Positions 33,576 to 50,663 are shown, counted from the stretch's first letter. The stretch is 64,000 bases of DNA from Erysipelothrix sp. HDW6C (GCF_011299615.1 NZ_CP049861.1:744001-808000), one strand, 5' to 3'. Program-made: numbers and translations. The notes: generated by a model not told the origin, from the sequence alone.

Positions 33576-33848
33576 TTGTTAGTCGATTATCGGTTTCGAG
33601 CAATATGATAAATTACATTAGATTGAGAGGAAAAGAGATGTTATATTCAATGCATTATTTAGTATGAGAATCTACTAAAAGTTTGACAAGGAGGTAGTTT
33701 TCACCATTTTGCTCAATTCAGCACATTATTCCCAAGTTATCGCAATTAATATCTACTTTTGAAGACATTAGAACGCGGATTAATATCATTACTAACAAAT
33801 GTGCATTTCAATGTAATAGGATTAATAGAGAACTATTTGGAGGGTATT
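33576..33848. other. intergenic region upstream of the Hsp70-like gene
   Basis: No gene visible. A perfect TTGACA at about 33683 is not followed by a convincing -10 at normal spacing. The Hsp70 frame is open here from 33759, but the true start appears to be 33849. Confidence 0.4.
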
Positions 33849-35555
33849 ATGTTAATTGGTATAGACTTAGGGACTACGAACTGCCTAGTGAGTATTCGTA
33901 AAGACGGGAAAACTGTATTGGTGCCCAACGAATTCAATGAATTTCTGACACCGACCGCAATTCATATCAGCCATAATGCAGAAATTACGATTGGAAAAAT
34001 CGCTCTTGAGAAGAAGATTGAAGAGCCTTCGAGGACAGTAAGTCTTTTCAAACGTAGTATGGGAAGCGATTTGAAGTATAAGGTTGGTGATACAAGATAT
34101 ACCTCGCTAGAACTCTCCTCTTTTATGATAAGAAAACTGGTTGCGGATGTTGAGAGATTTACTGGAGAAACGGTAACGGAAGCTATTATCTCAGTACCGG
34201 CATACTTTACCGACCAACAACGTAATGCAACTCGAAATTGTGGAATTCTAGCGGGTGTCAAAGTTGATAGAATTATTAATGAACCATCCGCAGCAGTTCT
34301 CACAAAACTTGATAACGATAAAAATGAAGGGATTTTTGTTGTATTTGATTTTGGTGGGGGCACACTGGATGTTACAGTGGTCGATGTTTTTGATAAGATT
34401 GTTGAGATTCTGACAGTATCAGGTGATAACGCATTGGGAGGTAGTGATATTGACCGATTAATTTTTGAAGATGTATTAAACAAGTATCCTCAACTCAGAA
34501 AGGGTGGACGACAGATTGAAGAAATAATTCTCAAGAAAAGTGAGAAACTAAAAATTAAACTTTCAGAAACTGATTGTGCCTCATTTCAAATCAATTTTAG
34601 TGATGAAGTACTACAATATGAACTCAGTAAAAATAAACTAACGCTTATTTGTAGGCCGTTGTTATTAAGAATTAGAAAAGTAATTGCGAGTGCACTTGGG
34701 GATGCGGGATATACGATCAATGATGTTGATGATGTTGTCTGTGTAGGTGGTTCGAGCAAATCATATATAATTAACGAGTATCTCAAACAACTGTTTCAAG
34801 TGGAAATTAATCAGAATGTCAACCCTGATGAAGCCATAGTATATGGTCTTGGTGAGATGATTGCCATAATGAATAGAGAATCGGGCAAAAGAGATATTGT
34901 AATTACAGATGTCTGTCCATTTTCACTTGGGACTTCAATATTGGGCGACATTTTCTCACAAATAATTCCCAAAAATACGACACTCCCAGTTTCGATGACA
35001 AAGAGCTATGTCACAGTGAGGGATAATCAAAAAAAGATACATTTTGAGGTGTTGCAAGGAGATAACATGATTGGATCTTTGAACGAGAAATTGTCGTCCT
35101 TCGAAGTCCCTGTGACACGCCTTCCTCAAGGTGAAGCTCAAGTTTTTGTTACATATGGTTATGACATCAATGGAATTTTAACGATACATGCTGTACATGA
35201 AAAAGAGAATGGTAAAGAAGAGGTCTCCATGACTCTAAAAACTAATAGTTTTGTAAGTGATGACGAAATTAAAAAGAGCCGAACGAAGCTCGAGAAAATT
35301 AAACCGAAAGTTTATGCATACTCAGTGCGGCAAGAGGCATTACTGATGCGTCTCAATAACGCTTCGATCGAATCGAGTGCGTATCAGAAAGATATTATCT
35401 TAAAACTATATCAAGATTTCATCGAATGCATTCATAACGAAAGTCCGAAGACCTCGGTTGAAATGGAACGCAAAATTTCACAAGTTCTAAACGATTTCGA
35501 TGACAATAAACTAGATGTTTTTCATTTAATAAAAGATAAAAGCAGACGAAGTTAG
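33849..35555 (+). CDS. HscC-like Hsp70 chaperone
   Basis: A 568-residue Hsp70 family protein. The ATPase half shows GIDLGTTNCLVSI at the N-terminus, the Hsp70 pattern VPAYFTDQQRNATRNCG, IINEPSAA, FDFGGGTLDVTV and CVGGSSKSY; the substrate domain starts near residue 355 (VCPFSLGT) and is short, so the protein lacks the full C-terminal lid and EEVD-like tail of DnaK (about 610-640). Length and form match HscC (Hsc62). The next gene encodes a membrane J-protein, the arrangement known for HscC with DjlB/DjlC. Start chosen at ATG 33849 with GGAGGG upstream; the extra codons from 33759 have no such site. This is not the housekeeping dnaK (no hrcA, grpE or dnaJ nearby). Confidence 0.85.
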   Translation: MLIGIDLGTTNCLVSIRKDGKTVLVPNEFNEFLTPTAIHISHNAEITIGKIALEKKIEEPSRTVSLFKRSMGSDLKYKVGDTRYTSLELSSFMIRKLVADVERFTGETVTEAIISVPAYFTDQQRNATRNCGILAGVKVDRIINEPSAAVLTKLDNDKNEGIFVVFDFGGGTLDVTVVDVFDKIVEILTVSGDNALGGSDIDRLIFEDVLNKYPQLRKGGRQIEEIILKKSEKLKIKLSETDCASFQINFSDEVLQYELSKNKLTLICRPLLLRIRKVIASALGDAGYTINDVDDVVCVGGSSKSYIINEYLKQLFQVEINQNVNPDEAIVYGLGEMIAIMNRESGKRDIVITDVCPFSLGTSILGDIFSQIIPKNTTLPVSMTKSYVTVRDNQKKIHFEVLQGDNMIGSLNEKLSSFEVPVTRLPQGEAQVFVTYGYDINGILTIHAVHEKENGKEEVSMTLKTNSFVSDDEIKKSRTKLEKIKPKVYAYSVRQEALLMRLNNASIESSAYQKDIILKLYQDFIECIHNESPKTSVEMERKISQVLNDFDDNKLDVFHLIKDKSRRS

Positions 35556-35601
35556 ATAAATGTAACTTTAGAATCGATGTGAATTGAAAAGGATGAACGT
35601 G

Positions 35602-36648
35602 ATGAATTTTGACGGTATGACAATATGGGAAATATTAGAAATTAGCGAAACAGATGATGAACATATCATTAGAAAAGCGTATTCAAAAGTTGTTAAACAA
35701 TACCATCCAGAAGAAAATCCCGAGTTATTTAAGAAAGTATATAAAGCATACAAAATTGCGATATCTATTGCTAAGCACAAGAGGCTATGGAATGCACAAT
35801 CACACGATGATTCAATGTTTGAAGGCCAAGTTGAAGATGAATTCTCACCATTGCCAAATCAAGCAGTCTCAGAAATGACTGTTGTTGAAACAGTTGAGAC
35901 AAATAACATCGAATCAGCCATCCCATTTGAGGAAATGGACATTAACAGTGAACAACTAAGTCTAATCGATGCGGTGTATCCGATGGTATTTCAGTTACGT
36001 TCATTGTTAGAGGATTATCGAGAAGATGAAGCAGATGTTATAATTACTAAACTCGCAAATCGAAATGCGTTTGATGATGAGGGAATTGTGAATGCAATCA
36101 TCGACCAAATTCTAAACATTGAGTTGTACATAAGATATGATTCTGTTCCAGTCAAAGCGATTCAGCGTATCGCAGACATGATTTCTGTAAGCAATGTAAT
36201 TGATTCTGTGACGTTCGATGCATTTCTAATGCATATAAGAAAGCTAAGTATTTTGAATCAGATTTCAAATTTTACTTTTATGCGAACCAAAGAAGAGATA
36301 CATGGAGAAAATATTGAAATTCCTTTTGAAACAAAAAAGATTCTTAGTGAAATTGATGATTTCAATGATGTGATCCACTGGATAGAAAAGGAAGAACTTG
36401 ATATCTTGAAGCGTCCGCATCTACGCAACGATGTAACTGTATTTTTGTATCTGATGCTTCACATGTATGAAGACAGACCAGAGTATAAACATATTGTACA
36501 AATGCGTAACGCATTACTAATTAAAGCATATCAAGAGGATAAGTTCGAAAATTTAGATGTACCTTCCAAAGTATGGATAATAATGTGTATCATACTAATA
36601 GGGTTTCTAGTTCTTGTATTATTCGGCATTGGGTTGGCAACCATGTAG
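35602..36648 (+). CDS. membrane-anchored J-domain protein with HPE motif
   Basis: A 348-residue co-chaperone candidate for the Hsp70 gene upstream. The J-domain is N-terminal (about 6-55: WEILEISETDDEHIIRKAYS, then YHPEENPELFKKVYKAY). The catalytic HPD tripeptide is HPE (35-37), a conservative change that could weaken or retune Hsp70 stimulation. A long acidic, helical middle (60-315) is unassigned; a single membrane segment (about 322-345) anchors the C-terminus, so the J-domain faces the cytoplasm. The frame opens at TTG 35584; ATG 35602 with AAAAGG at suitable distance is preferred. The gap to the Hsp70 stop is 46 bases without a terminator, so the pair is an operon. Confidence 0.8.
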   Translation: MNFDGMTIWEILEISETDDEHIIRKAYSKVVKQYHPEENPELFKKVYKAYKIAISIAKHKRLWNAQSHDDSMFEGQVEDEFSPLPNQAVSEMTVVETVETNNIESAIPFEEMDINSEQLSLIDAVYPMVFQLRSLLEDYREDEADVIITKLANRNAFDDEGIVNAIIDQILNIELYIRYDSVPVKAIQRIADMISVSNVIDSVTFDAFLMHIRKLSILNQISNFTFMRTKEEIHGENIEIPFETKKILSEIDDFNDVIHWIEKEELDILKRPHLRNDVTVFLYLMLHMYEDRPEYKHIVQMRNALLIKAYQEDKFENLDVPSKVWIIMCIILIGFLVLVLFGIGLATM

Positions 36649-37270: not shown

Positions 37271-38026
37271 TTACTGTGTAAGCATCTTATTTAGCCAATC
37301 CAGAAGTGAAGTCTTGATTTCCTCAAAGTATTGGACATCAAGCTCGTGAACTCTGTGAGAACTTGAAACCAGTACTGACTGTGGATTGCCCTGGACGATT
37401 GTACTTGATTCAATATAAGGAACATCAGGATCAAATATGCTATGCCATGCAAATACAGGTGATAATATATCAAGATTTATAGTAGGAAGCGAATTACCAA
37501 GATAGCTAAGCCAAACTCCTGTTTGTCGTGAGTGGACATACAAACTATAGCGTTCGCCCACAGATGCGCTTGTAAGGATTGTAGGGGAAATAAGGTGTTG
37601 CAAAGTGCGTTCTGGGATTTTTGGTAATGCAAGGTAGTGCCTATTGGGTGTCGACATCCAGTCTGTCCGATTGCCACTGTAACCGTAGAAAGAAATGATA
37701 AACTTTGGTTTAAAGAAAGCAGCTAATTGTAGCGCTAAAAATGCTCCTGCAGAACGACCGAAGAAACCATAGGACTGAATATTACCACTCGCTATAACAT
37801 CCGTCAGTGTTTGCTTTAAACTTGCTAGAATACCATCAAACTTCATCTCAGGTGCAAGGGGGTAATCAATGGCGATGATTGTGATAGCCTGATTGTTGAA
37901 GAAAGTGATCACATCTTTGGGTAAATCGTTGCGTGATCCAAAAATTAGACCGCCGCCATGAAAATAGAAAAGTGTGAACTTTGAAGTGGGTGTTGCGTAG
38001 AGTGTTAATGTGTCGCTGTTAATCAT
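37271..38026 (-). CDS. alpha/beta hydrolase, HSL-type esterase
   Basis: A 251-residue esterase-like protein. The oxyanion-hole motif HGGG (about 24-27, in YFHGGGLIFGS) and the nucleophile elbow GRSAG (Ser near residue 93) are typical of the hormone-sensitive-lipase family; an Asp and the His in SSHRVHELD near the C-terminus complete a plausible triad. The open frame reaches TTG 38185, but that would overlap the divergent pucR start; ATG 38026 is preceded by AAGGAAAGAGG on the minus strand and leaves a 150-bp divergent promoter region. Divergence from pucR raises the possibility of shared regulation with the ureide cluster; the substrate is unknown. Confidence 0.75.
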   Translation of the reverse strand: MINSDTLTLYATPTSKFTLFYFHGGGLIFGSRNDLPKDVITFFNNQAITIIAIDYPLAPEMKFDGILASLKQTLTDVIASGNIQSYGFFGRSAGAFLALQLAAFFKPKFIISFYGYSGNRTDWMSTPNRHYLALPKIPERTLQHLISPTILTSASVGERYSLYVHSRQTGVWLSYLGNSLPTINLDILSPVFAWHSIFDPDVPYIESSTIVQGNPQSVLVSSSHRVHELDVQYFEEIKTSLLDWLNKMLTQ

Positions 38027-38176: not shown

Positions 38177-39814
38177 ATGATGCAATACATGGTTAAAGAC
38201 GTACTAAAAGTTCCCGCTCTAAAGTCCGCAGCATTACTATCGGGGAAAGAAGGGATCTACAACGAAGTAACAGATATCATTGTTATGGAAGCACACGATA
38301 TTGAACGGTGGTTGAAACCGGGCCAATTGGTATTAAGCAGTCTATTTTCTCTCAAGGAAAGCACACGTCAAGAGTACGCTGATTTTGTTGCGGAAATGAA
38401 AAAGCGTGGGGCAAGTGGCTTGATCATAAAAATGGGACGGTTTGTGGATGCAATCCCAGCGGGTTTGATAGAAGGGTGCGCGGATCATGATTTGCCACTC
38501 ATTCAAATCAACGAAACAGTACCGTACAGTTCAATAATTCTCGAAGTGATGCAAAACCTAATTAACCAGAAAGCAGATATGCTGGATGTTTATCAAAATG
38601 TGCATCATGAGTTTAAAACACTGGCCATGCGTGAACCAGAAAGCAAAGATGTTTTGGATGTGTTGAAAAAGATTATTGGACGGGATGTCAGTCTTTATGA
38701 TGATGTGAGACAATGCATTGCGACAACGGAACGTGGTGCACTGGATGTTGAGGTGCGTGATGCGCGTGAACTGTTTCGCGAACAGTATATGCATTACGAG
38801 TACTTCCGTGAATTAATTGTGGACGGTGGCGTCATGCAATCGCGTTTGGTCTGCAAGATACCAGGAATGGATGGATCACCTCAGTATTTAGCGATTCGTG
38901 AAGTTGAAACATTTGTCGAAATGATTGATTTTATGGCAATTGAGAATGCCGCAAGTACACTGCAATTTGAAGGAATCAAACAAGTTGCGCTTTCTCGTGA
39001 GAAAGAAAGCCATATGAACGATATTGTTGACCACATAATTAATGGTAAATATAAGGATATCGAAGAACTAAATGAGAATGCACTGCTGTTAAAATTATCA
39101 CTGGATAAAAAGTATCGTGTGGTAACATGGCAACACTTTGAAGGAAAGGTCTCAAGCGGAAATCGCTCGTTTCAAGAACATACTGCATATATGGGATGTA
39201 CAAACGGTATCATTGATTCTATAAAAAGTGTGTGGCCGCGAAATGCATATCGTATCTTCTCCAATCGATTGACGTTTATTGTTGAGGATAATTTCACAAC
39301 GGACCAAGCATTTCGGGATTATGTTGAAGAAACATTAACCAAAGTATTTAAGGAGCACAATCGTGGCAACATCGTGCTGCGCGTTGGAATCAGTGATCAA
39401 GGTAATTTGAGCGATATTCCTCGCCTTGCCGCACAACCGCTTCGTGTTGTGCAAATTTCTGATATGATTCATCAACCATCATTTGTCGTACTTTATAAAG
39501 ACTTGGGTATCTACCGTATCTTGATTGAGTTATCAAAGGAAAATGATTTGAATGATTATGTTTCGGATATTGTGAAGACACTGTATGAACACGACCCTGA
39601 TTATTTTGAGACGGTTCGGGTATTCTTAGATACCAATCAAAACTACAAGCAAACGGCTGATATACTGTTTGTTCACCCAAAGACTGTTCGCTATCGCATT
39701 GAAAAGATAAAGGAACTGACCAAATTGGATTTCGATAATCCTGAAGAGATGCTTCAAATCATGATTGGCATTCGTATTTTCCAGCTCTTGGGACATTCTA
39801 AAACAACCGTCTAA
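38177..39814 (+). CDS. pucR: PucR-family transcriptional regulator
   Basis: A 545-residue regulator of the purine/ureide type. N-terminal PucR domain (about 1-125, VKDVLKVPALKSAALLSGKEG...), a central GGDEF-like fold segment without catalytic motif (about 290-430), and a C-terminal HTH_30 domain (about 480-540) with NQNYKQTADILFVHPKTVRYR. In Bacillus PucR activates purine catabolism in response to ureides. Here it directly precedes a permease, an amidohydrolase and a transcarbamylase operon, so it is probably their activator. A terminator overlapping its stop codon separates it from the next gene. Confidence 0.9.
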   Translation: MMQYMVKDVLKVPALKSAALLSGKEGIYNEVTDIIVMEAHDIERWLKPGQLVLSSLFSLKESTRQEYADFVAEMKKRGASGLIIKMGRFVDAIPAGLIEGCADHDLPLIQINETVPYSSIILEVMQNLINQKADMLDVYQNVHHEFKTLAMREPESKDVLDVLKKIIGRDVSLYDDVRQCIATTERGALDVEVRDARELFREQYMHYEYFRELIVDGGVMQSRLVCKIPGMDGSPQYLAIREVETFVEMIDFMAIENAASTLQFEGIKQVALSREKESHMNDIVDHIINGKYKDIEELNENALLLKLSLDKKYRVVTWQHFEGKVSSGNRSFQEHTAYMGCTNGIIDSIKSVWPRNAYRIFSNRLTFIVEDNFTTDQAFRDYVEETLTKVFKEHNRGNIVLRVGISDQGNLSDIPRLAAQPLRVVQISDMIHQPSFVVLYKDLGIYRILIELSKENDLNDYVSDIVKTLYEHDPDYFETVRVFLDTNQNYKQTADILFVHPKTVRYRIEKIKELTKLDFDNPEEMLQIMIGIRIFQLLGHSKTTV

Positions 39815-39826
39815 GGTTGTTTTTTC
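39801..39826 (+). terminator. terminator overlapping the pucR stop
   Basis: AAACAACC (39801-39808) and GGTTGTTT (39815-39822) with a 6-base loop containing the TAA, followed by T. Confidence 0.8.
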
Positions 39827-39830
39827 TTTC

Positions 39831-39851
39831 TTTTATCCACAATGGATAAAA
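39831..39851. promoter_or_regulatory. palindromic operator candidate upstream of the permease operon
   Basis: TTTTATCC (39831-39838) and GGATAAAA (39844-39851) around ACAAT: a perfect 8-bp-arm palindrome. The core TTATCC-N5-GGATAA recurs at 42641-42657 before allF, suggesting a binding site for a common regulator, most simply PucR. Confidence 0.6.
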
Positions 39852-39967
39852 GAGGATGTTTTTTTGCCTTATTTGGGACAAGTAATCGGTTACACCCTGA
39901 TATAGAATAAAACTACAGAACAGATACGTTAGTTTCTGTAATGATTTCATAACAAGGAGGAGAAATC

Positions 39968-41320
39968 ATGAAAAAAAGAGGGAAGAAGCTCATTCTTATT
40001 CTGACGCTTGTCTTTGGTTTGTTAACCATAGCAACACAGAGCATCATGGCTTTGGAGATTAGTGAGATTGTTGCACCAACAGGCTTCAAGGCTGTTATGG
40101 TCATCATTCCACTAATTCTAGTATTGGTATTGCTATTTCTAAAAGTTGATATGGTCTTGGCGGGTGCAATCGCTGCGGGTATCGCGATGATCATTGGTGG
40201 TGTATCACTTGCTGAAATGAACAAAGAGGTGTTGGGAGCAATTCCAACAATGCTTACAATCACGGTTCCTATCATTAACTCCGCGATTGCGATGGCAGTA
40301 TTTAAGGCAGGAAGTTATACAGCTGCCCTAGAGCTTGTCAACCGAGCTACAAAAGGAAAAGTAGAATATGTATCTGCGTTTCTTGTCATTCTTGTTGCAG
40401 CAGCAACCTATATGTCCGGTATCGGTGGTGGTAGTGCAATGGTTATTGCTCCACTAGCATTTGCTGCAGTAGGTGCGATTCCGGAGTTAATTGCCGGTAT
40501 GTCGATTGCAGCTGCGGTATCGTTTACAACATCACCTGCTTCGCTTGAAACAAGCATTACTTCACAATTGGGTGGATTTGAAGCAGCAACATATGTTGAT
40601 GCAATGCGTCCATTCTGGTTGTTCTTCTTGATTCTTGCGATTGGTATTGCATTCGTTGGTGTTAAACGTCGTAAGTTGGGATTCAAACAATCTGAGAATA
40701 AAGAATATGCAGATATGTCAAATGGGAAACTCTTTAAATATACCATTCCTGCAATCTATCTCTTATTCTCTGTAATCTTTGGACCCCTAATCAGCAAGGT
40801 GTTCTTCTCGCCGATTGTTTATATGATTGTTACAGTATTGCTCATTGTTGTATGTACAGGCTTGGATATTAATAAAGCCTTCTCATCAATGATTGAAGGG
40901 TCAAATTACATTCTGACACGCTTGTTTCAAGTAGGGATTTTCTTAGGATTCATTAACGTTATCGCAAGCACAGGTACCTTTGCAGTTATCGCAAACGTTG
41001 CATCGGCAGCACCGACAGCAATTGTGGTTCCTGTTGCAGTCTTAACGGGAATTCTTATTGGTGTTCCTGCAGGGGCGTATGTCGGCTCCATATTGACGCT
41101 TGTCTTGCCAATTGGTATTGCCCTTGGATTTACACCAATTCAACTAGGGTTTATCACCATGGGCGTTGGATTAGGAAGTCAAATGAGTTTCGTTAATATT
41201 ACCATGCAGGCACTTTCGTCAGGATTCCAAATCCCTATTCTACAAGTCGTTAAGGGAAATATTAAGTGGTTATCACTTGCGAGTGTCTTGTTGGTTGTTG
41301 CATCATTTATTTTTGCTTAA
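39968..41320 (+). CDS. IT-superfamily permease, presumed ureide/carbamoyl-compound importer
   Basis: A 450-residue integral membrane protein with about 11-12 hydrophobic segments, including the gly-rich loop SGIGGGSAMVIAPLAFAA and a hairpin-like FTTSPASLETSI, resembling ion-transporter-superfamily permeases (GntP/DctM/C4-dicarboxylate-like). The N-terminus has a basic start and a hydrophobic segment that may be the first helix. It is cotranscribed with the amidohydrolase and regulated with the transcarbamylase operon, so import of the pathway substrate (an anionic ureide?) is the likely role; substrate is inference only. AAGGAGGAG precedes ATG 39968. Confidence 0.8.
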   Translation: MKKRGKKLILILTLVFGLLTIATQSIMALEISEIVAPTGFKAVMVIIPLILVLVLLFLKVDMVLAGAIAAGIAMIIGGVSLAEMNKEVLGAIPTMLTITVPIINSAIAMAVFKAGSYTAALELVNRATKGKVEYVSAFLVILVAAATYMSGIGGGSAMVIAPLAFAAVGAIPELIAGMSIAAAVSFTTSPASLETSITSQLGGFEAATYVDAMRPFWLFFLILAIGIAFVGVKRRKLGFKQSENKEYADMSNGKLFKYTIPAIYLLFSVIFGPLISKVFFSPIVYMIVTVLLIVVCTGLDINKAFSSMIEGSNYILTRLFQVGIFLGFINVIASTGTFAVIANVASAAPTAIVVPVAVLTGILIGVPAGAYVGSILTLVLPIGIALGFTPIQLGFITMGVGLGSQMSFVNITMQALSSGFQIPILQVVKGNIKWLSLASVLLVVASFIFA

Positions 41321-41344
41321 AGGTAAACATAGGAGGAACGTATT

Positions 41345-42574
41345 ATGGATTTACTATTTAAAAATGTTCGTATTGATGAAGCAGGTGCGTTAAAAGATGT
41401 TGCTGTCAAAGATGGTAAGATTGTTGCCATTGAGGATCACGTAGATGGCGATGTTAAACGCACGATTGAAGGAAACGGTCGTGTATTGGTACCAGGTCTT
41501 GTTGAAAGTCACATTCATTTGGATAAAGCTTTAATTGCGAATCGCAAGCCAAATCTATCAGGAACGCTCAAAGAGGCAATCGAAGTTACGGCATCATTGA
41601 AGCCTACGTTCTCAGCTGAAGATATTTATGAACGTGCTACCAAAGCATTGAAAGAATTGATATTACCGAATGGCGTCACATTTATGCGTACACATGCTGA
41701 ATTTGATCCATCACAAGGATTTACTGGTTTTGATGTTATTATGAAAATCAAAGAAGAGTTCAAAGACTACATTGACATTCAAGTTGTCGCCTTTCCACAA
41801 GAAGGAATCTTTAAAGCACCTGGAACAGAGGAAATGATGGTTGAAGCCATGGAACGTGGAGCAGACGTTGTAGGTGCGGTTCCTTATAATGACCGTGATG
41901 CAATTGAACATATTGATTATGTGTTTGAACTTGCGCAACGCTTTAATAAGCCCATCGATCTTCACCAAGATTTTGCCGATAATGCCGATAAAATATCAAT
42001 TGATTACCTTGCAAAGAAAACAATTGAAACGGGGTATCAAGGTCGTGTTTCCGTAGGGCACTTAACTGCAATTGCTGCATTGCCACCCGAAGAGTTACAA
42101 CCGATTTTGGAACTAATGGCAGAAGCGGATATCAGTGTAATGGCTCTGCCTGCAACTGATCTTCACTTGGGTGCACGTAATGATACATACAATGTGCGCC
42201 GTACTGTCACACCAATTCGCAAACTCCGTGATGCGGGAGTCAACGTATGTATTGCAACAAATAACATTCGTAATGCCTTTACACCATATGGTACAGGGGA
42301 TATTGTTCAAACAGCGATGCTTGCAATCCCAGTAGCTCACCTTGGTGGTGCTGCGGACTTACCAACAGTATTGCCAATGATCACAACAAATCCTGCACGT
42401 GCCTTAGGCTTAGATGGTTATGGAATTGTAGTCGGAAATAATGCTGATATGGTTCTTTTGGATACAACATCGTATGGTGATGCCATCATTGACTTACCAA
42501 TCAAGTCGGTGGTAGTGAAATCAGGACGAGTTACAGTCGAAAATTCAAAAACGACGCAGTTTGGGATTCAATAA
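41345..42574 (+). CDS. amidohydrolase of the cytosine-deaminase-like group with altered active site
   Basis: A 409-residue TIM-barrel amidohydrolase. Metal ligands seen: HIHLDK (His56, His58), His207 in DLHQDF and His239 in GHLTAI. Two usual residues differ: at the place where cytosine deaminase has the catalytic Glu of HCDE the sequence is HQDF (Phe210), and the late metal-binding Asp of a TDN-type motif is Asn (ATNN, 304-307). It therefore is unlikely to be an ordinary cytosine deaminase. Lying 24 bases after the permease gene and before the transcarbamylase operon, it may open a ring to make the ureido substrate. AGGAGGAACG upstream of the ATG. Confidence 0.8.
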   Translation: MDLLFKNVRIDEAGALKDVAVKDGKIVAIEDHVDGDVKRTIEGNGRVLVPGLVESHIHLDKALIANRKPNLSGTLKEAIEVTASLKPTFSAEDIYERATKALKELILPNGVTFMRTHAEFDPSQGFTGFDVIMKIKEEFKDYIDIQVVAFPQEGIFKAPGTEEMMVEAMERGADVVGAVPYNDRDAIEHIDYVFELAQRFNKPIDLHQDFADNADKISIDYLAKKTIETGYQGRVSVGHLTAIAALPPEELQPILELMAEADISVMALPATDLHLGARNDTYNVRRTVTPIRKLRDAGVNVCIATNNIRNAFTPYGTGDIVQTAMLAIPVAHLGGAADLPTVLPMITTNPARALGLDGYGIVVGNNADMVLLDTTSYGDAIIDLPIKSVVVKSGRVTVENSKTTQFGIQ

Positions 42575-42577
42575 TGC

Positions 42578-42600
42578 AAAGGCGCACTGCGCCTTTTATT
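42578..42600 (+). terminator. terminator of the permease-amidohydrolase operon
   Basis: AAAGGCGC (42578-42585) and GCGCCTTT (42589-42596) with loop ACT and T-rich tail. Confidence 0.8.
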
Positions 42601-42640
42601 ATCCAATAATTCGGTAAATGACTAATAAATGAGGACTTCT

Positions 42641-42657
42641 TTATCCGTTAAGGATAA
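42641..42657. promoter_or_regulatory. palindromic operator candidate upstream of allF
   Basis: TTATCC-GTTAA-GGATAA; same arms and spacing as the site at 39833-39849. A further TTATCC half-site lies exactly 42 bp upstream (42599-42604), about four helical turns. A TATGAT -10-like box at 42680-42685 would put the palindrome centre near -43, a typical activator position. Confidence 0.6.
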
Positions 42658-42715
42658 TGACCCACATGATTACATGGACTATGATTGATTCGAGGAAGCA
42701 GAAAGGATACAGAGT

Positions 42716-44467
42716 ATGATAAAAACAATTATAAAAAAGAACGCATATAAAGATTCCGTGGTCTTAATGTTGTTAACAAATGAAATTGCTTCATTGGATG
42801 GTGTAAATCGCGTTTCCATTATGATGGCAACAGCGGCGAACAAAGACATTTTTGCACAAGCAGATTTACTAACAGATGAAGTCACCACCGCAGCGGCAGA
42901 TGATATCGCAATCGTGATGGATGTCACATCTGATGATGTGGTTGATGGTGTTATGGAGGCGATTGAAGCATTCCTTAACAAGAGTGATAAAAAAGATGCT
43001 GACCAAGGTGCGATGACAGTGAGAAACTGGGATAAGGCGATTGAAGCAATGCCTGATGCTAATCTTGCAGTATTCTCAATTCCAGGAATCTATGCCGCAG
43101 AAGAGGCGGATACTGCACTGGACAAAGGATTGAATGTATTTCTATTTAGTGACAATGTCACCTTAGAAGATGAGATTCGTCTCAAAAAGAAGGCGCGTGA
43201 TTTGGACTTACTTGTAATGGGTCCGGATTGTGGTACGGGCATAGTAGCCGGTGTCCCGATTGCGTTTACAAACAAAGTAAATGATGGCTCAATTGGCGTT
43301 GTAGGGGCATCTGGAACTGGAATACAGGAAGTTACGACGTTAATTGATAAAGCTGGTCAAGGGATTACGAGCGCTCTTGGAACGGGTGGACGCGATCTGA
43401 ATGCTGGCGTTGGTGGAATCACGATGCTTGATAGTATTCATCACTTGCAAGCACAACAGGATACGAAGGTAATTCTCGTTGTTTCAAAACCACCTGCTAA
43501 AGAAGTTAAAGAAACGATTGAAGCTTATTTAAGAACGTTGGATAAACCAGTAGTCACACTCTTCCTGGGAGAAAAACCAGAAGATCATGAAACAAATATT
43601 TATCGTGCTTACACATTGGAAGAGGCAGCACTAGCAGCAGTTGCACTTGTTGAAGGAAAAGATCCTCACACTTTGAATCTTAACCGTCAGCCTGAACAAG
43701 CTGTATCAGGAATTCAAGGCAAAGTAATCAAAGCCTACTACTCGGGTGGTACCTTGGCATCTGAAGCAGCAATGCTTGTTAACGATGCGCTACAATTGCC
43801 CAAAGAAGGGAAACAACCCCATGGGTTTATGCTAAACCATGATGGCTTTGAGATTATTGACTTGGGCGATGATGAATATACACAAGGACGTCCGCATCCA
43901 ATGATTGATCCAAGCAAACGGATTGAACTTATGAAGTCGGCTGCCTCTGATCCACGAACAGGTGTTGTCTTATTTGATGTAGTCTTAGGCTATGGATCAC
44001 ATGCTGATATGGCAGGGTCACTCGCCCCAACAATCGTTGAATTAATGCAAGAAAATAGAGATTTAAAATTTGTTGCAACGGTTTGTGGAACAAAACAAGA
44101 TCCTCAGGATTTGGGAGCACAAATTCAAATACTTGAAGATATCGGTGTGTTTGTTGCGAAAAGTAACGCCCATGCTGTACTCACAGCACTTCAGTATCTT
44201 GGACACAATGTTATTTATGAACAAAGACCCATTCATGAGCAAGGGACCGGCGTGGTTCCGGAATTAAAAATGTCCGCAAAAATAAGCGAATTAATAACCG
44301 CAAAACCACGCATTATAAATGTTGGATTGCAAAGCTTTGCAGACAATCTTCAGGATGCTGGGGCAACGGTGGTTCAATTTGATTGGCGTCCACTTGCAGG
44401 TGGCGATGCAACACTCATTAAAGCATTGAAATATCTTGATAATTATAAATTTACGAAAGGGGCCTAA
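42716..44467 (+). CDS. allF: FdrA/AllF-type transcarbamylase subunit
   Basis: A 583-residue protein of the FdrA family (succinyl-CoA-synthetase-like fold; E. coli FdrA is about 555). In E. coli FdrA, YlbE and YlbF together were shown to form oxamic transcarbamylase (AllFGH), converting oxalurate plus phosphate to oxamate and carbamoyl phosphate at the end of allantoin fermentation. Visible features: a Rossmann-like nucleotide/phosphate region (GPDCGTGIVAG, GVVGASGTGIQEV) and SALGTGGRDLNAGVGG typical of the ligase-CoA fold. First gene of the allFGHK-type operon; 3 bases separate it from allG. The real substrate here may differ because the allantoin pathway genes are absent. Confidence 0.88.
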   Translation: MIKTIIKKNAYKDSVVLMLLTNEIASLDGVNRVSIMMATAANKDIFAQADLLTDEVTTAAADDIAIVMDVTSDDVVDGVMEAIEAFLNKSDKKDADQGAMTVRNWDKAIEAMPDANLAVFSIPGIYAAEEADTALDKGLNVFLFSDNVTLEDEIRLKKKARDLDLLVMGPDCGTGIVAGVPIAFTNKVNDGSIGVVGASGTGIQEVTTLIDKAGQGITSALGTGGRDLNAGVGGITMLDSIHHLQAQQDTKVILVVSKPPAKEVKETIEAYLRTLDKPVVTLFLGEKPEDHETNIYRAYTLEEAALAAVALVEGKDPHTLNLNRQPEQAVSGIQGKVIKAYYSGGTLASEAAMLVNDALQLPKEGKQPHGFMLNHDGFEIIDLGDDEYTQGRPHPMIDPSKRIELMKSAASDPRTGVVLFDVVLGYGSHADMAGSLAPTIVELMQENRDLKFVATVCGTKQDPQDLGAQIQILEDIGVFVAKSNAHAVLTALQYLGHNVIYEQRPIHEQGTGVVPELKMSAKISELITAKPRIINVGLQSFADNLQDAGATVVQFDWRPLAGGDATLIKALKYLDNYKFTKGA

Positions 44468-44470
44468 ATC

Positions 44471-45736
44471 ATGACATTTAGAACAATTGAAGATGCAAAC
44501 CAAGCTGTAATTGATCGCATTAAAGCAGGAAGTCCAATTCTTGTTGATGTCGTCCCAGCAAAATCTGTTATCAGTGAATTGAATGGGAAGGTACTTCTTC
44601 ATGCTGGGCCGCCAATCTTATGGGAAAACATGCCAGATCCAATGCAAGGGTCTTGTGTTGGTGCCGTATTATTCGAACAATGGGCAAGCACAGAAGATGA
44701 AGCAAGACAAATGTTGTCCGAGGGGAAGATTGCATTTATACCGTGTCATCATGTAAATGCAGTAGGACCAATGGGTGGTATTACTTCGGCAAATATGCCT
44801 GTACTTGTTGTTGAAGATCGTGTTCACAATACGGTTGCCTATTGTCAAATGAATGAGGGCATTGGTGCAGTACTTCGATTTGGTGCTTACTCACAAGAAG
44901 TTATCACCCGACTCGAATGGATGCGCGATACGCTTGGACCCGTACTTGGAAAAGCAATTCGAGCTATGGATGAAGGGTTAAGTATCAATCCAATGGTTGC
45001 CCGTGCTATTGCAATGGGCGATGAGTTTCATCAACGAAATATTGCGGCATCACTTATTTTCTTAAAAGAAGTTACGCCAATTATCGCACGCTTGAAGGAT
45101 ATCAGCGATGCAGAACGAACAGAAGTTTTACAATTTCTTGCTGATACAGATCAATTCTTTCTTAACATCATGATGGCTTCTGCGAAAGCAGTCATGGATG
45201 GCGCACGTCAAATCAAAGAAGGAACCATAGTCACAGCGATGTGTCGTAATGGAGAAAACTTTGGAATTCGTATTGCTGGGATGGGTGATGAATGGTTTGT
45301 AGCTCCCGTAAATACGCCACAAGGTCTTTACTTCACAGGATATACCGGTGATGATGCAAGTCCTGATATGGGTGACAGTGCAATTACTGAAACGTTCGGA
45401 GTTGGAGGGATGGCGATGATTGCTGCTCCAGCCGTTACACGTTTCGTTGGAACGGGTGGCTTTGATGATGCGCTGCGAATTTCCAATGAAATGGATGAGA
45501 TTGTCATGGACCACAATCCAAACTTTATCATCCCAACATGGAATTTCAAGGGTACACACCTGGGCATTGATGCTCGCAAAGTCGTAGCAACAGGGATCAC
45601 CCCGGTTATTAATACAGGTATTGCCAATAAAAAAGCAGGCCGTGGTCAAATTGGTGCAGGGACGGTACACCCACCTGTAGCTTGTTTTGAAAAAGCCATT
45701 GCTGCTTACGCTAAAAAACTTGGAATGGAAGGATAA
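44471..45736 (+). CDS. allG: YlbE/AllG-type transcarbamylase subunit (DUF1116)
   Basis: A 421-residue DUF1116 protein, same length as E. coli YlbE (about 419), the second subunit of AllFGH oxamic transcarbamylase. Characteristic segments: PILWENMPDPMQGSCVGA, HHVNAVGPMGGITSANMPV, RNGENFGIRIAGMGD and the C-terminal GAGTVHPPVACF. The Gly/Asn-rich motifs are likely to bind the carbamoyl group or phosphate. The gene begins 3 bases after allF with AAAGGGGCC upstream, and is followed by allH across 1 base. Confidence 0.9.
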   Translation: MTFRTIEDANQAVIDRIKAGSPILVDVVPAKSVISELNGKVLLHAGPPILWENMPDPMQGSCVGAVLFEQWASTEDEARQMLSEGKIAFIPCHHVNAVGPMGGITSANMPVLVVEDRVHNTVAYCQMNEGIGAVLRFGAYSQEVITRLEWMRDTLGPVLGKAIRAMDEGLSINPMVARAIAMGDEFHQRNIAASLIFLKEVTPIIARLKDISDAERTEVLQFLADTDQFFLNIMMASAKAVMDGARQIKEGTIVTAMCRNGENFGIRIAGMGDEWFVAPVNTPQGLYFTGYTGDDASPDMGDSAITETFGVGGMAMIAAPAVTRFVGTGGFDDALRISNEMDEIVMDHNPNFIIPTWNFKGTHLGIDARKVVATGITPVINTGIANKKAGRGQIGAGTVHPPVACFEKAIAAYAKKLGMEG

Positions 45737-45737
45737 T

Positions 45738-46550
45738 ATGACAACACTAAAGGCACTGTCGATTTCGCAATCAGCCAAGACAATGTTAACTGAGAATCAT
45801 GAATTAATTCATGTACACAGTACCTTTAGTCATGGTCTTAATCTTCTTGTTGATGATCGTCTTATATTTATAGGTGATTCAAATTCTCCTTTTGGAATCC
45901 AACTATCACAAAATGACATGCATCAATTATCTTTAGTCAGTAAGGAAACAACAGTCTTTTATCATAATGCCAAACTTTACTTCCGTAATCTCCTTAAACC
46001 TATTACGGTTGAACTTGCTGATTGTCCCCTTGATGCATGGACAATGTCGACGTTTTCTCAAGACAGTGCCAGTCTTGAGAAACGTCTACACTTAATCCGA
46101 AATATTACAACACCGACAGGGTTTGATCTTTCAGTGGATGAAACGCTACAAATAATTAAAACTGAACTTCCGGATACTGAAAGTAGGGTTCAATGGCTTT
46201 TGGGTCGTGGACGTGGACTCACTCCATCAGGAGATGATGTTCTACTTGGGTATTTGGCAATCACGCGTTCGTTAAATATGTGCGTGAGTGCTACTGAAAA
46301 TATACTATCAGATAGACTCAAAATAGATACTACAACCCATGTATCCTACGAGTATCTTCACTACGCACTGGAAAACAAATGGAGTCTTAGAATGGTAAAT
46401 TTTCTAGAAAGTCTGCATTGTGCAAGTGATGAAGCATTTACGCGTCAACTTATTTCGTTTTTAGATTATGGACACACATCCGGTTGTGATACCTTGCTGG
46501 GTATTGCGTGGGGATTGGAAGAAATACTTAATAAAGAAGGTAACATATGA
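45738..46550 (+). CDS. allH: YlbF/AllH-type transcarbamylase subunit (DUF2877)
   Basis: A 270-residue DUF2877 protein matching E. coli YlbF (about 271), third subunit of the AllFGH enzyme. The conserved LLGRGRGLTPSGDDVLLGYL (about 155-174) and TSGCDTLLGIAWG near the C-terminus are the family hallmarks. The frame is open from 45687, but ATG 45738 follows GGAAGGATA and removes a long overlap with allG. It overlaps the kinase gene by 4 bases (ATGA). Confidence 0.9.
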   Translation: MTTLKALSISQSAKTMLTENHELIHVHSTFSHGLNLLVDDRLIFIGDSNSPFGIQLSQNDMHQLSLVSKETTVFYHNAKLYFRNLLKPITVELADCPLDAWTMSTFSQDSASLEKRLHLIRNITTPTGFDLSVDETLQIIKTELPDTESRVQWLLGRGRGLTPSGDDVLLGYLAITRSLNMCVSATENILSDRLKIDTTTHVSYEYLHYALENKWSLRMVNFLESLHCASDEAFTRQLISFLDYGHTSGCDTLLGIAWGLEEILNKEGNI

Positions 46551-47482
46551 AACAGAAAATAGTAATTGCATTGGGTGGAAATGCCTTGGGTGAGACCCCA
46601 TCCGAACAAAGAGATGCGGTAGCGATTGCTGCCAGAAGTATTGTCGATCTGATTGCACTGGGTCACGATGTAACGGTAGTCCATGGAAATGGACCTCAAG
46701 TTGGAATGATTCACTTGGCTTTTGATATAGCAGCCCAACAAACTGAAGATATCCCTGAAATGCCGTTTGCAGAAGCGTCAGCAATGTCACAAGGGTATAT
46801 TGGTTACCATCTTCAAAATGCGGTTGGAAATGAGTTGAGAGAGCGTACAATCGATAAGTCAGTAGCAACCGTCCTAACACAAGTTGTTGTTGATAAACAG
46901 GATCCAGCATTCACCACACTCACAAAACCAATTGGTCCCTTTTACGATGAAGTAACAATGCTTGCTCTATCCGAAAAGAATGGATATACATACATTGAAG
47001 ATTCAGGCCGCGGTTACCGTCGTGTTGTTGCATCACCGATGCCGGTGACTGTGGTCGAGCGTGACGCCATTAAATCACTTGTGGATGCAGGTGTCTTGGT
47101 AATCTCAAATGGTGGTGGGGGAATCCCTGTTATCGAGGAAAATGGGAAGTATGTTGGGGTCGATGCCGTAATCGATAAAGATAATGCGGCTTCAAAAGTG
47201 GCTGATGAAATTGATGCCGATATCCTTGTAATTCTTACAGGTGTCGACAAAGTAGCAATTCATTATGGCAAGTTCAACCAAGAATGGTTAACGACACTCA
47301 CGATTCCGATGGCCAACCAATATATTAATGAAGGACATTTTGCTCCAGGATCAATGCTGCCCAAAGTGGAGGCATCAGTTCGATTTGTAGAAGGTCGACA
47401 AAACCGTAAAGCCATTATTACATCTTTAGAGAATGCCCATTTGGCAATTTCTGAGGGGAATGGCACAACCATTCAATCATAG
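46547..47482 (+). CDS. arcC: carbamate kinase
   Basis: A 311-residue carbamate kinase: carbamoyl phosphate plus ADP gives ATP, CO2 and ammonia. Signature regions: IALGGNALG at the N-terminus, VVHGNGPQVG, SMSQGYIGYHLQNAV, ISNGGGGIPVI and VDAVIDKDNAA. Its place as last gene of the transcarbamylase operon (the role of AllK/YbcF in E. coli) indicates that the pathway is used for substrate-level ATP formation. No arginine deiminase genes are nearby. Translationally coupled to allH through ATGA. Confidence 0.95.
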   Translation: MKQKIVIALGGNALGETPSEQRDAVAIAARSIVDLIALGHDVTVVHGNGPQVGMIHLAFDIAAQQTEDIPEMPFAEASAMSQGYIGYHLQNAVGNELRERTIDKSVATVLTQVVVDKQDPAFTTLTKPIGPFYDEVTMLALSEKNGYTYIEDSGRGYRRVVASPMPVTVVERDAIKSLVDAGVLVISNGGGGIPVIEENGKYVGVDAVIDKDNAASKVADEIDADILVILTGVDKVAIHYGKFNQEWLTTLTIPMANQYINEGHFAPGSMLPKVEASVRFVEGRQNRKAIITSLENAHLAISEGNGTTIQS

Positions 47483-47540: not shown

Positions 47541-50500
47541 TTACTTCTTGGTTTTCATTTGGTCCGAGAGTAAGTTTCTCGACTCCATTAGAATCAAAAA
47601 GATTCCTGATCCAAGTATTATCATTGCCACTATTGGTAAAAGCGAAGAGTTGATTCCTGCATTGGGGAGTGAGTCGACGTTATTCTTCGGATCTTTATCA
47701 ACAGGTGTTGAACGGTTGATTGGTTCATAAATGTAAACCACAAGAATATCCTCGTTAACAATTCCTTGGGTATTGCTTGGTTCTGCTTTGAGTTTATATT
47801 GCTTCCCGTTGTATTCAAGTGTTTCAAGACGTTGTGTCTGATAGTTCGTTCCGACATTATAGGTTGATACTGTTGCATCGCGGATATCGGTACCATTCGT
47901 ATCTTGGTATTTTGTAGTGACGGTTGCGGTTTGAATCTCGTTATTCAGTTCACTGTATGTATAAATGACATCGATATTACCATTTATGACATTTCCTGTA
48001 CTGTTGGTTGCCTCGACTTTAATTGTATACGCTTTTCCGTTATAGGATATTGTTGCGGTTCGTGCAGTAGTATAGGGTGTTCCAACAACGAGTGTTTGTA
48101 TTGACTTTGCTTTAATATCTTGGCCGGCAATGTTTCGGTAGTAGGTTGTAACAGTTCCTGTCTGCTGTTGTGGTGATGTGAGATCGTATGTATAAGTAAC
48201 ATCGGTATTTCCAGCAACGACAGTACCACTTGCATTCGCTGGTGCAGTGTTAAGAAGGTATGTCTTTCCATCAAAGATGATAGTTGTTGGGGCTGTTGTG
48301 GTGTAGGCTGTTCCAATTGTCAGTGTCTGAATCTGACTGGTTTGAATATCGACGCCGTCTTGACGCTTGAAGTATGTAGTAACAGTACCGTCAAGTTCCG
48401 CACGTGTTTCGATTCGGTAGGTATAAATAACATTTATTGGATCAGTACCTACAGTTCCATCTTTGTTTGTAGGTTCACTCCATAAAGCGTAGACTTGGTT
48501 GTTGTAGTTTATTGTTTGCGGTCGTGTTGTTGTGTACGGAGAATTTGTATTCACAGTTTGAAGGATACTTGGCTGCAAATCGGTTCCTGATTCATCTTGA
48601 TAATATGTCGTAACAGTGACGGTATTAACTTGTGGGTCGGGGATTTCATAGATATAAATGACATCCGTATTTCCCGACACAACAGGACCACTCTTGTTGG
48701 CTGGTTCCGTTTTAAGTATGTAAGTTTCACTGTTGAATTGAATGGTCTCTGGTCGTGTCGTTGTGTAGGTTTGACCAACATTAAGAATCTGTGTTGTAAG
48801 GGTCTGAAGGTCTGTACCATTTGTGTCGTGATAATAAGTTGTGATGGTCGCTGTTTCAATCGCAGGTTCATCCAGCTCATAGACATAGGTTACATCCGTA
48901 TTTCCGCTTGTGGTAGTACCGGTTTTGTTGGTTGCTTCAGTTTTTAATGTGTAGTTTTTATTGTTATACGTTATGGTTGAAGGTCGTTGTGTTGTGTAAT
49001 GTGTTCCAACCACTTTTGTAGCGATACTTGTGCTTGCGATGGCAAGGTCATCCTCGTCTACGAAGTGTGTGGTTACGGTTCCACCGGCAACATGAATTGT
49101 ACGGGTGAAAGGGACTGCGTAGGCACCATCATTCGCTGTAATATCAGCAGGAAGTTTACCGATGGCAGAAGCTTTCGCATCCAGAGCGGTGTAGGTATAC
49201 GTGAGTGTTACATCCTGATTTGCATAGGAATCATCAGAAAGTGCAACTGGTAGTTCAGTTAAAGTATACGCTGTCGCCTCAGCATTAATGAAAACACGGA
49301 TATTATCAATGTCAGTACCGATTGCGGTTCCATCAGAGAAAATTCCATTATCTGTTAAAGTGAAACTTGAACCTCCTAATGTTGTATCAAAAGATGCATG
49401 TTTCGTCGCATCCCAATCAATAATTGTTGATAAGTCACCAAAATTTGAGAAAAAAGGGCGTGTTGTTTCGATTATGAAGGTTGATACATTAGGAGAGAGT
49501 AGTTTCAATAAATTACCATTATCAAGGCTAATGCCGCTCTTATAGGCATCGGGTACATTTAAGAAGGCAGGATTATCGTTGCCACGTAATGTATCACCGG
49601 ATGCATACATAAAATATACAACTTCAGTATCGTTGATAGCGTCATTGGTACGTTCTGTTTCGGTTGCGAAAAAGTCGGAATCCAAGTCGGAACCGCGATA
49701 GAACCCCGTTAATTGAATTTGACCACCCATGCCACCGGGAATATTACTTGCACCACTGTTCTTCTGGATTTCGCGCAAGCCAGTATTAAGTGTTGATGAA
49801 AACTCATTAACACCTTTTTCTATCATCAGACCATTCGCGTTGCGTATGGCGCTATCCATATACAATTTTCCTATACCCCCTAATTGTGAGTATCCATACG
49901 GTGTAATGTGAAGATTTGCGGTTGCATTGATGTAATAATTTGGGTTGCTCGCATATGAACCGATAAGGTCTGTTCCATTCTTTGCTCTTAAATATGTTTG
50001 TGCGCCTCGAAGCCCGTGCGACGGTGAGCTACGCATCGTTAGAGTAATATCACTTCGCGTGGTATTGTAACGTGTAGGAATGGTCATTTTATTCTTTTCT
50101 GTCATCATATAATCGTTTACGGTATTATCTTCGCCATAGCCGATAAGGTTTGGGAAATAAGTACCAGTACCGTAATTCTTAATTGTCGTTGTATTCGTAT
50201 TTCCTGGCACAATTGGCAGGACTCCAACGGTTAGTCTTGAAGACGTTATATTACCTGCAATCGCATTTGGAGCTGCAGTTGTGGCAACCGTAGGAATTGA
50301 AGGGCCATCATATGTTAGTGGTCCATACTTTGTGGGGTTTGTGTTAATCAAGTTTGAGTTACGATCAAGCACACCCATATAACCAGAATAACGATCTTCA
50401 ATTGCAATGTTGTTGGCCAGATAAAATTCATTATAAGTCATCCCTTGAGCGTAAACAATGATTCCAGCATCTGCTGAAGCGACAAGATTTGTGATGTTTG

Positions 50501-50663
50501 TAGTAATTACTGTATCTAAAAAACCTTTATCAACAGTACTGTCGGTATAGTAGTTTGAACCAGTGAGTAAGTATGTTTTATCAGCGTTGTCTGCGTGCAC
50601 CGGGTGTGCAGAGGCTGTTGATAGTAACAGAATAAGGCAAAGTAAAATTGTTGATTTTCTCAT
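47541..50663 (-). CDS. large LPNAG-anchored surface protein with MucBP-like repeats
   Basis: A 1040-residue wall protein. Signal peptide with cleavage near HPVHA-DN (about 24). Residues ~30-520 form a unique, Ser/Asn/Thr-rich region with no recognised domain, followed by six ~75-residue MucBP-like repeats (about 530-980), each starting with a TVTTYY-x-D-x-x-G-x-D-I/LQ-like phrase and ending VTYxY. The sorting signal is LPNAG (999-1003), a variant with Ala in the fourth place, then a hydrophobic stretch and basic end. MucBP repeats suggest mucus or glycan binding, by family analogy. AAAGGGGAT on the minus strand precedes the ATG. The gene stands alone. Confidence 0.88.
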   Translation of the reverse strand: MRKSTILLCLILLLSTASAHPVHADNADKTYLLTGSNYYTDSTVDKGFLDTVITTNITNLVASADAGIIVYAQGMTYNEFYLANNIAIEDRYSGYMGVLDRNSNLINTNPTKYGPLTYDGPSIPTVATTAAPNAIAGNITSSRLTVGVLPIVPGNTNTTTIKNYGTGTYFPNLIGYGEDNTVNDYMMTEKNKMTIPTRYNTTRSDITLTMRSSPSHGLRGAQTYLRAKNGTDLIGSYASNPNYYINATANLHITPYGYSQLGGIGKLYMDSAIRNANGLMIEKGVNEFSSTLNTGLREIQKNSGASNIPGGMGGQIQLTGFYRGSDLDSDFFATETERTNDAINDTEVVYFMYASGDTLRGNDNPAFLNVPDAYKSGISLDNGNLLKLLSPNVSTFIIETTRPFFSNFGDLSTIIDWDATKHASFDTTLGGSSFTLTDNGIFSDGTAIGTDIDNIRVFINAEATAYTLTELPVALSDDSYANQDVTLTYTYTALDAKASAIGKLPADITANDGAYAVPFTRTIHVAGGTVTTHFVDEDDLAIASTSIATKVVGTHYTTQRPSTITYNNKNYTLKTEATNKTGTTTSGNTDVTYVYELDEPAIETATITTYYHDTNGTDLQTLTTQILNVGQTYTTTRPETIQFNSETYILKTEPANKSGPVVSGNTDVIYIYEIPDPQVNTVTVTTYYQDESGTDLQPSILQTVNTNSPYTTTRPQTINYNNQVYALWSEPTNKDGTVGTDPINVIYTYRIETRAELDGTVTTYFKRQDGVDIQTSQIQTLTIGTAYTTTAPTTIIFDGKTYLLNTAPANASGTVVAGNTDVTYTYDLTSPQQQTGTVTTYYRNIAGQDIKAKSIQTLVVGTPYTTARTATISYNGKAYTIKVEATNSTGNVINGNIDVIYTYSELNNEIQTATVTTKYQDTNGTDIRDATVSTYNVGTNYQTQRLETLEYNGKQYKLKAEPSNTQGIVNEDILVVYIYEPINRSTPVDKDPKNNVDSLPNAGINSSLLPIVAMIILGSGIFLILMESRNLLSDQMKTKK

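Follow-up and report, generated by a model that had tools for sequence, protein, structure and literature searches.

A candidate oxalurate fermentation module with an atypical amidohydrolase in Erysipelothrix sp. HDW6C

Oxalurate is a breakdown product of uric acid. In Escherichia coli, AllFGH has been characterised as an oxamic transcarbamylase that interconverts oxalurate and phosphate with oxamate and carbamoyl phosphate (PMC11326118), and the reaction of the E. coli carbamate kinase AllK has likewise been shown. Enterococci, E. faecalis among them, are reported to draw energy from oxalurate as such by way of oxamate transcarbamylase (PMC3282769, PMC6022934). In nitrifiers (ammonia oxidisers), allFGH and a carbamate kinase gene without upstream purine genes have already been reported (PMC12625717). 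Here we describe a related cluster from Erysipelothrix sp. HDW6C, whose genome is a single contig of 2.36 Mb. The window analysed is a 64,000-nucleotide stretch of this genome (39% GC), and all positions are counted from its first base.

Gene content and conservation of the cluster

Seven tandem genes in the same direction occupy positions 38177-47482 (Table 1), and a divergent alpha/beta hydrolase gene lies at the left edge. The sequence-only reading had listed pucR, permease, amidohydrolase, allF, allG, allH and arcC as present and tightly packed; all seven were found at that place, with gaps of 24, 141, 3, 1 and -4 bases from the permease gene to arcC (arcC and allH overlap by 4 bases). Matches to AllF, AllG and AllH indicate that all three transcarbamylase subunits are encoded. 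The carbamate kinase scored 352 against TIGR00746, slightly below the cut-off of 358, and both membership of its family and an operon shared with the transcarbamylase were found.

Table 1. Features of the cluster and its left edge in the Erysipelothrix sp. HDW6C window
Feature	Coordinates	Strand	Evidence and remarks
Alpha/beta hydrolase (Abhydrolase_3)	37271..38026	-	Divergent from pucR; likely start ATG 38026, listed ORF from TTG 38185
PucR-type regulator	38177..39814	+	PucR N-terminal domain and C-terminal HTH_30; PF07905 E 1e-30
Permease	39968..41320	+	No Pfam match; model has an ion transporter superfamily fold as in the anion transporters MleN, INDY and TRAP DctM, at low sequence identity
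Amidohydrolase, NN type	41345..42574	+	Cytosine-deaminase/AtzC family; PF07969 E 5e-33
AllF (FdrA), oxamic transcarbamylase subunit	42716..44467	+	NF004760 690 bits, cut-off 433; 40% identity to E. coli AllF
AllG (YlbE/DUF1116), oxamic transcarbamylase subunit	44471..45736	+	PF06545 E 2e-94; 59% identity to E. coli AllG
AllH (YlbF/DUF2877), oxamic transcarbamylase subunit	45738..46550	+	PF11392 E 3e-24; start ATG 45738, replacing listed TTG
Catabolic carbamate kinase (ArcC/AllK type)	46547..47482	+	NF009007 357 bits, cut-off 266

Other genes of the window lie outside the cluster. At 33759-36648, an Hsp70-family protein (598 aa) is followed by a 354-aa protein whose sole recognised part is a J domain at the N terminus, and the two resemble a dedicated Hsp70/J pair, and a 1040-aa protein with five MucBP domains, likely a surface protein, is encoded next to the cluster on the minus strand (47541-50663).

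The close relatives of the host are Erysipelothrix aquatica, E. anatis and E. urinaevulpis. E. aquatica and E. anatis keep the full order PucR-permease-amidohydrolase-allFGH-arcC, and E. urinaevulpis, Alkalibacterium, Vagococcus and one Deferribacterales metagenome-assembled genome (MAG) keep most of it; because the order recurs in this way, the arrangement is not due to chance. Further Bacillota and one Deferribacterota MAG share the permease, the amidohydrolase, allFG and arcC. Relatives of the alpha/beta hydrolase occur near E. coli-type AllFG in most carriers (Erysipelothrix, Alkalibacterium, Vagococcus, E. faecalis, E. aquimarinus and the genome G180), and this enzyme therefore probably belongs to the system. 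AllF and AllG are fused or share one open frame of approximately 1000-1030 aa in Alkalibacterium (locus L040, 11192-14281), E. faecalis (L081, 10339-13350) and G180 (L092).

One E. faecalis record contains genes for the alpha/beta hydrolase, PucR, AllFG, AllH, carbamate kinase, AllD, a permease and the amidohydrolase in one cluster. This record is labelled a plasmid, yet it holds ezrA and other chromosomal-type genes. We infer that its cluster is the enterococcal oxalurate locus; our literature searches found no paper tying this gene cluster to enterococcal oxalurate use.

The permease gave no match in Pfam and no sequence match in the PDB. Its AlphaFold2 model (pLDDT 77.5) best matches MleN, followed by INDY-type dicarboxylate and TRAP DctM membrane proteins, with a TM-score of approximately 0.67 for the best match and 0.4-0.6 for most others, at sequence identities of only about 11-17%. 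To judge from this model, the fold would suit organic anions, oxalurate for example, more than it would an uncharged ring.

AllFGH substrate and the allantoin genes

To place AllG, the one subunit of the three for which a tree was built, a maximum likelihood tree was constructed from 33 AllG proteins. The window protein falls into a single clade (100/100) with E. coli AllG, the AllG of other carriers of the NN amidohydrolase and an AllB-linked protein of G180. In Vagococcus, E. faecalis and G180 the AllG proteins of this clade are encoded next to allantoin genes, and the clade is separate from all AllG groups linked to BiuH or AtzD (biuret/cyanurate) or to hydantoinase-like genes. Given this grouping with the oxamic transcarbamylase of E. 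coli, the window AllFGH is likely, as far as sequence can tell, an oxamic transcarbamylase with oxalurate as its substrate. This narrows what the sequence-only reading had left open, and oxalurate is now the strong default.

That reading had also described a self-contained module of import, phosphorolysis and carbamate kinase without allantoin genes, and searching the whole genome for allB and allD bears this out. In family (profile) searches, from which all gene absences given here derive, the host genome contained no Ldh_2 protein and thus no AllD (ureidoglycolate dehydrogenase), and nothing scored above the allantoinase (AllB) model cut-off, the sole match below it being the dihydroorotase beside pyrB. 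The host Amidohydro_1 proteins are this dihydroorotase, adenine-deaminase-like, NagA-like and EF_0837-like proteins (all four named by inspection) and the cluster amidohydrolase. Of the M20 peptidases, the eight strongest, ahead of three weaker ones, were compared with E. coli AllC, and none is like it. The same pattern, with AllD absent and AllB not above cut-off, was found in the three other Erysipelothrix genomes, in genome G292 and in one Deferribacterota genome; Alkalibacterium has AllD only, and Vagococcus and E. aquimarinus have both AllB and AllD.

The sequence-only reading went further and suggested a possible new ureide fermentation. Its stand-alone module is retained here; its open substrate is not, as oxalurate is likely and oxalurate fermentation has already been reported in E. 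faecalis. We now consider it quite unlikely that the substrate of AllFGH is, in place of oxalurate, a new ureide that the amidohydrolase produces. The genome search just described would agree with such a substrate, as would the Erysipelotrichales relatives of AllFGH that lie beside biuret/cyanurate-type genes, because of which the family probably has several substrates; the window AllG, however, groups with the E. coli enzyme and not with the biuret or cyanurate clades.

The Erysipelotrichales contexts of AllG are varied: a BiuH-like protein with a NAT-type permease, an AtzD/TrzD cyanuric-acid-hydrolase-like protein with a canonical amidohydrolase, a distant hydantoinase-like protein, and AllB. 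Biuret or cyanurate use by the window cluster was rejected because its AllG lies outside those clades and the cluster encodes neither AtzD nor BiuH. Elsewhere in Erysipelotrichales genomes (loci L112-L115, L117 and L128), AllFG(H) and carbamate kinase adjoin BiuH-like isochorismatases and NAT-type permeases, which points to a clade of AllFGH that serves biuret or some similar ureide; the BiuH representative (L058) scored 282, below the biuret-hydrolase cut-off of 370. At loci L057, L058, L062, L064-L066 and L069, AtzD/TrzD family proteins occur with AllG paralogues and an amidohydrolase of the canonical cytosine-deaminase-like kind, a combination that may allow cyanurate or barbiturate to be used anaerobically with a yield of ATP. 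The split of the AllFGH family into clades that travel with biuret/cyanurate genes predicts new transcarbamylase substrates.

An amidohydrolase with altered catalytic residues and divided company

Sequence comparison and the predicted fold alike place the cluster amidohydrolase nearest to CodA, the cytosine deaminase of E. coli, and to AtzC; the model has a mean pLDDT of 78, with low values at the active-site loops. Assignment to the ring-opening hydantoinase, allantoinase and dihydroorotase families, the type proposed from the window sequence, was rejected, since those families match short stretches only. Residues H56, H58, H207, H239, K61 and Q152 are kept, and the four active-site His of subtype III (HxH and two further) are invariant in the orthologues. 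The metal-binding Asp after strand 8 (CodA D313, AtzC D303) is replaced by Asn306, CodA Asp314 by N307 and the catalytic CodA Glu217 by Phe210, each in 18 of 18 aligned orthologues drawn from Bacillota, Pseudomonadota and Deferribacterota. In AtzC and CodA that Asp is a metal ligand, and the metal-bound water of AtzC hydrogen-bonds to it (PMC4577212). By contrast, amidohydrolase copies adjoining AtzD genes retain the Asp-Asn pair and the Glu. The residues of the window enzyme are at odds with hydrolysis of the ordinary subtype III kind.

Proteins of the NN type group in a single clade, together with a 41% identical rhizobial protein (97/92), whose place is less sure because its branch is long. 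A plasmid search for the amidohydrolase returned the E. faecalis record and rhizobial relatives of about 40% identity. On Rhizobium plasmids (L079 and L162), relatives of approximately 41% identity have as neighbours an alpha/beta hydrolase, a flavin oxidoreductase and an annotated '8-oxoguanine deaminase'. The one such protein inspected, that of L079, shares the Phe/Asn-Asn signature, although its gene set looks unrelated. A DNA search of E. coli gave no match to the amidohydrolase, and even sampling of phylum and class gave no further carriers beyond the order.

Outside the allFGH context, the gene keeps different company. In Pseudomonas and Enterobacter it lies directly behind the cyanase gene cynS (8/8 proteobacterial loci), and genes for carbonic anhydrase (cynT) and a LysR regulator (cynR) are present at all seven loci that reach far enough. 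No AllG was found in the three Pseudomonas and one Enterobacter carriers searched. Two of these AllG-less carriers, P. lundensis and Enterobacter, were also searched for cyanase and have it, and none was found in the nine AllG-carrying genomes searched for it; AllG and cyanase are thus mutually exclusive among the carriers searched for both. Genome G303 encodes the amidohydrolase beside the permease and a carbamate kinase with no neighbouring allFGH, and its AllG copies lie outside the E. coli clade. From this distribution, the amidohydrolase accompanies either carbamoyl-phosphate-making or cyanate-destroying genes, and this split is the strongest unexplained pattern in the data. It allows either a feeder role, such as the conversion of parabanate to oxalurate, or a role in carbamoyl or cyanate chemistry. 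Literature searches on cyanase together with amidohydrolases, and on enzymatic parabanate hydrolysis, found nothing relevant.

The second of these roles, in which the enzyme would handle carbamoyl groups or cyanate directly, with AllFGH plus carbamate kinase or cyanase as alternative downstream partners, is in our judgement unlikely. It would account for the cyn linkage, the mutual exclusion and the carbamate kinase neighbour in G303, and it would suit an active site from which the water-activating Asp/Glu pair is gone and in which the metal-type His are kept. The enzyme could release cyanate from a ureide without water activation, or it could clear cyanate, which arises by decay of carbamoyl phosphate (PMC6022934), or the carbamoylated products of that decay. 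However, Gln152 and Phe150, which in the pocket would accommodate a urea-like ring, are conserved relative to CodA, and Pseudomonas already has cyanase for cyanate. That the NN clade catalyses a reaction new to the superfamily, for example non-hydrolytic cyanate release or carbamoyl transfer from a ureide at a three-His metal site, is speculative and rather improbable; if true, the carbamoyl product would yield ATP via AllFGH and carbamate kinase in anaerobes, or would be destroyed by cyanase in Pseudomonas.

A downstream role is very improbable. Here the amidohydrolase would hydrolyse the end product oxamate to oxalate and ammonia, which would explain its position beside oxamate-forming genes in Bacillota and give an exit to a product that is otherwise a dead end (PMC11326118, PMC9843812), but there is no oxamate in the cyanase context and the enzyme is without the canonical catalytic residues.

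A proposed oxalurate-to-ATP module compared with known systems

We favour, at a probability of roughly 0.6, a self-contained oxalurate-to-ATP fermentation module with the NN amidohydrolase as a side or feeder enzyme. The permease would be an organic anion carrier, most likely bringing oxalurate in and perhaps letting oxamate out. AllFGH, on its phylogeny and the reaction shown for the E. coli enzyme, would convert oxalurate and phosphate to oxamate and carbamoyl phosphate, from which carbamate kinase would make ATP; the carbamate would break down to ammonia and CO2. The ureide is presumably the signal for PucR. The amidohydrolase would act at the ureide/carbamoyl node, and our leading guess is that it may form oxalurate out of a precursor that is cyclic or carbamoylated, parabanate for instance; it is not simply a substitute for AllD, since both coexist in E. 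faecalis.

This reading draws on AllF, AllG, AllH and carbamate kinase matching their family models head to tail, on the clade that AllG shares with the E. coli protein, on the permease model matching anion transporters, on the lack of AllD and of above-cut-off AllB in the Erysipelothrix, Deferribacterota and G292 genomes, and on the presence of the same parts in E. faecalis, a species reported to use oxalurate. Several observations count against it: the coexistence of the amidohydrolase with AllD in E. faecalis; the G303 locus, with amidohydrolase, permease and carbamate kinase but AllG outside the E. coli clade; the proteobacterial cyanase linkage, which an oxalurate role does not explain; and the permease fold match, which has low identity and modest TM-scores.

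The cluster would give genes to the fermentation of free oxalurate, known mainly from physiology of the 1960s-80s, and would show that this fermentation can stand alone without allantoin genes in Erysipelothrix. For the NN amidohydrolase clade, the altered catalytic residues and the two kinds of neighbours make the reaction testable. In the literature searched, the stand-alone Erysipelothrix module with its permease and NN amidohydrolase, the linkage of this amidohydrolase to cyanase, and the AllG clades tied to biuret/cyanurate genes appear to be new; the type of fermentation is already known from enterococci.

Compared with E. coli allFGHK (PMC11326118, PMC9843812), the window shares the gene order allF-allG-allH-carbamate kinase, with AllG of the same clade at 59% identity, and adds PucR, the anion-type permease, the NN amidohydrolase and the alpha/beta hydrolase; in contrast to E. 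coli, no allB or allD was found in the Erysipelothrix genome. The likeness to E. faecalis extends from physiology, in which free oxalurate is reported to be catabolised via oxamate transcarbamylase and carbamate kinase (cited in PMC3282769 and PMC6022934), to its sequence record, where all window gene types are present; E. faecalis has in addition AllD, SDF and MFS transporters and a second amidohydrolase. The ammonia-oxidiser allFGHK genes (PMC12625717) likewise lack upstream purine genes but lie beside biuH/trtA and a GatA-like amidohydrolase instead of the NN amidohydrolase. CodA and AtzC (amidohydrolase superfamily subtype III) share with the window enzyme the fold, the HxH motif, the third and fourth His and the substrate-binding Gln, and differ in the metal-binding Asp and Glu217, replaced here by Asn and Phe. 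Arginine and agmatine deiminase fermentations also pass from a transcarbamylase through carbamoyl phosphate to ATP by carbamate kinase, but their transcarbamylase is unrelated, and the ureide used by the window cluster, which has no deiminase, is presumably ready-made.
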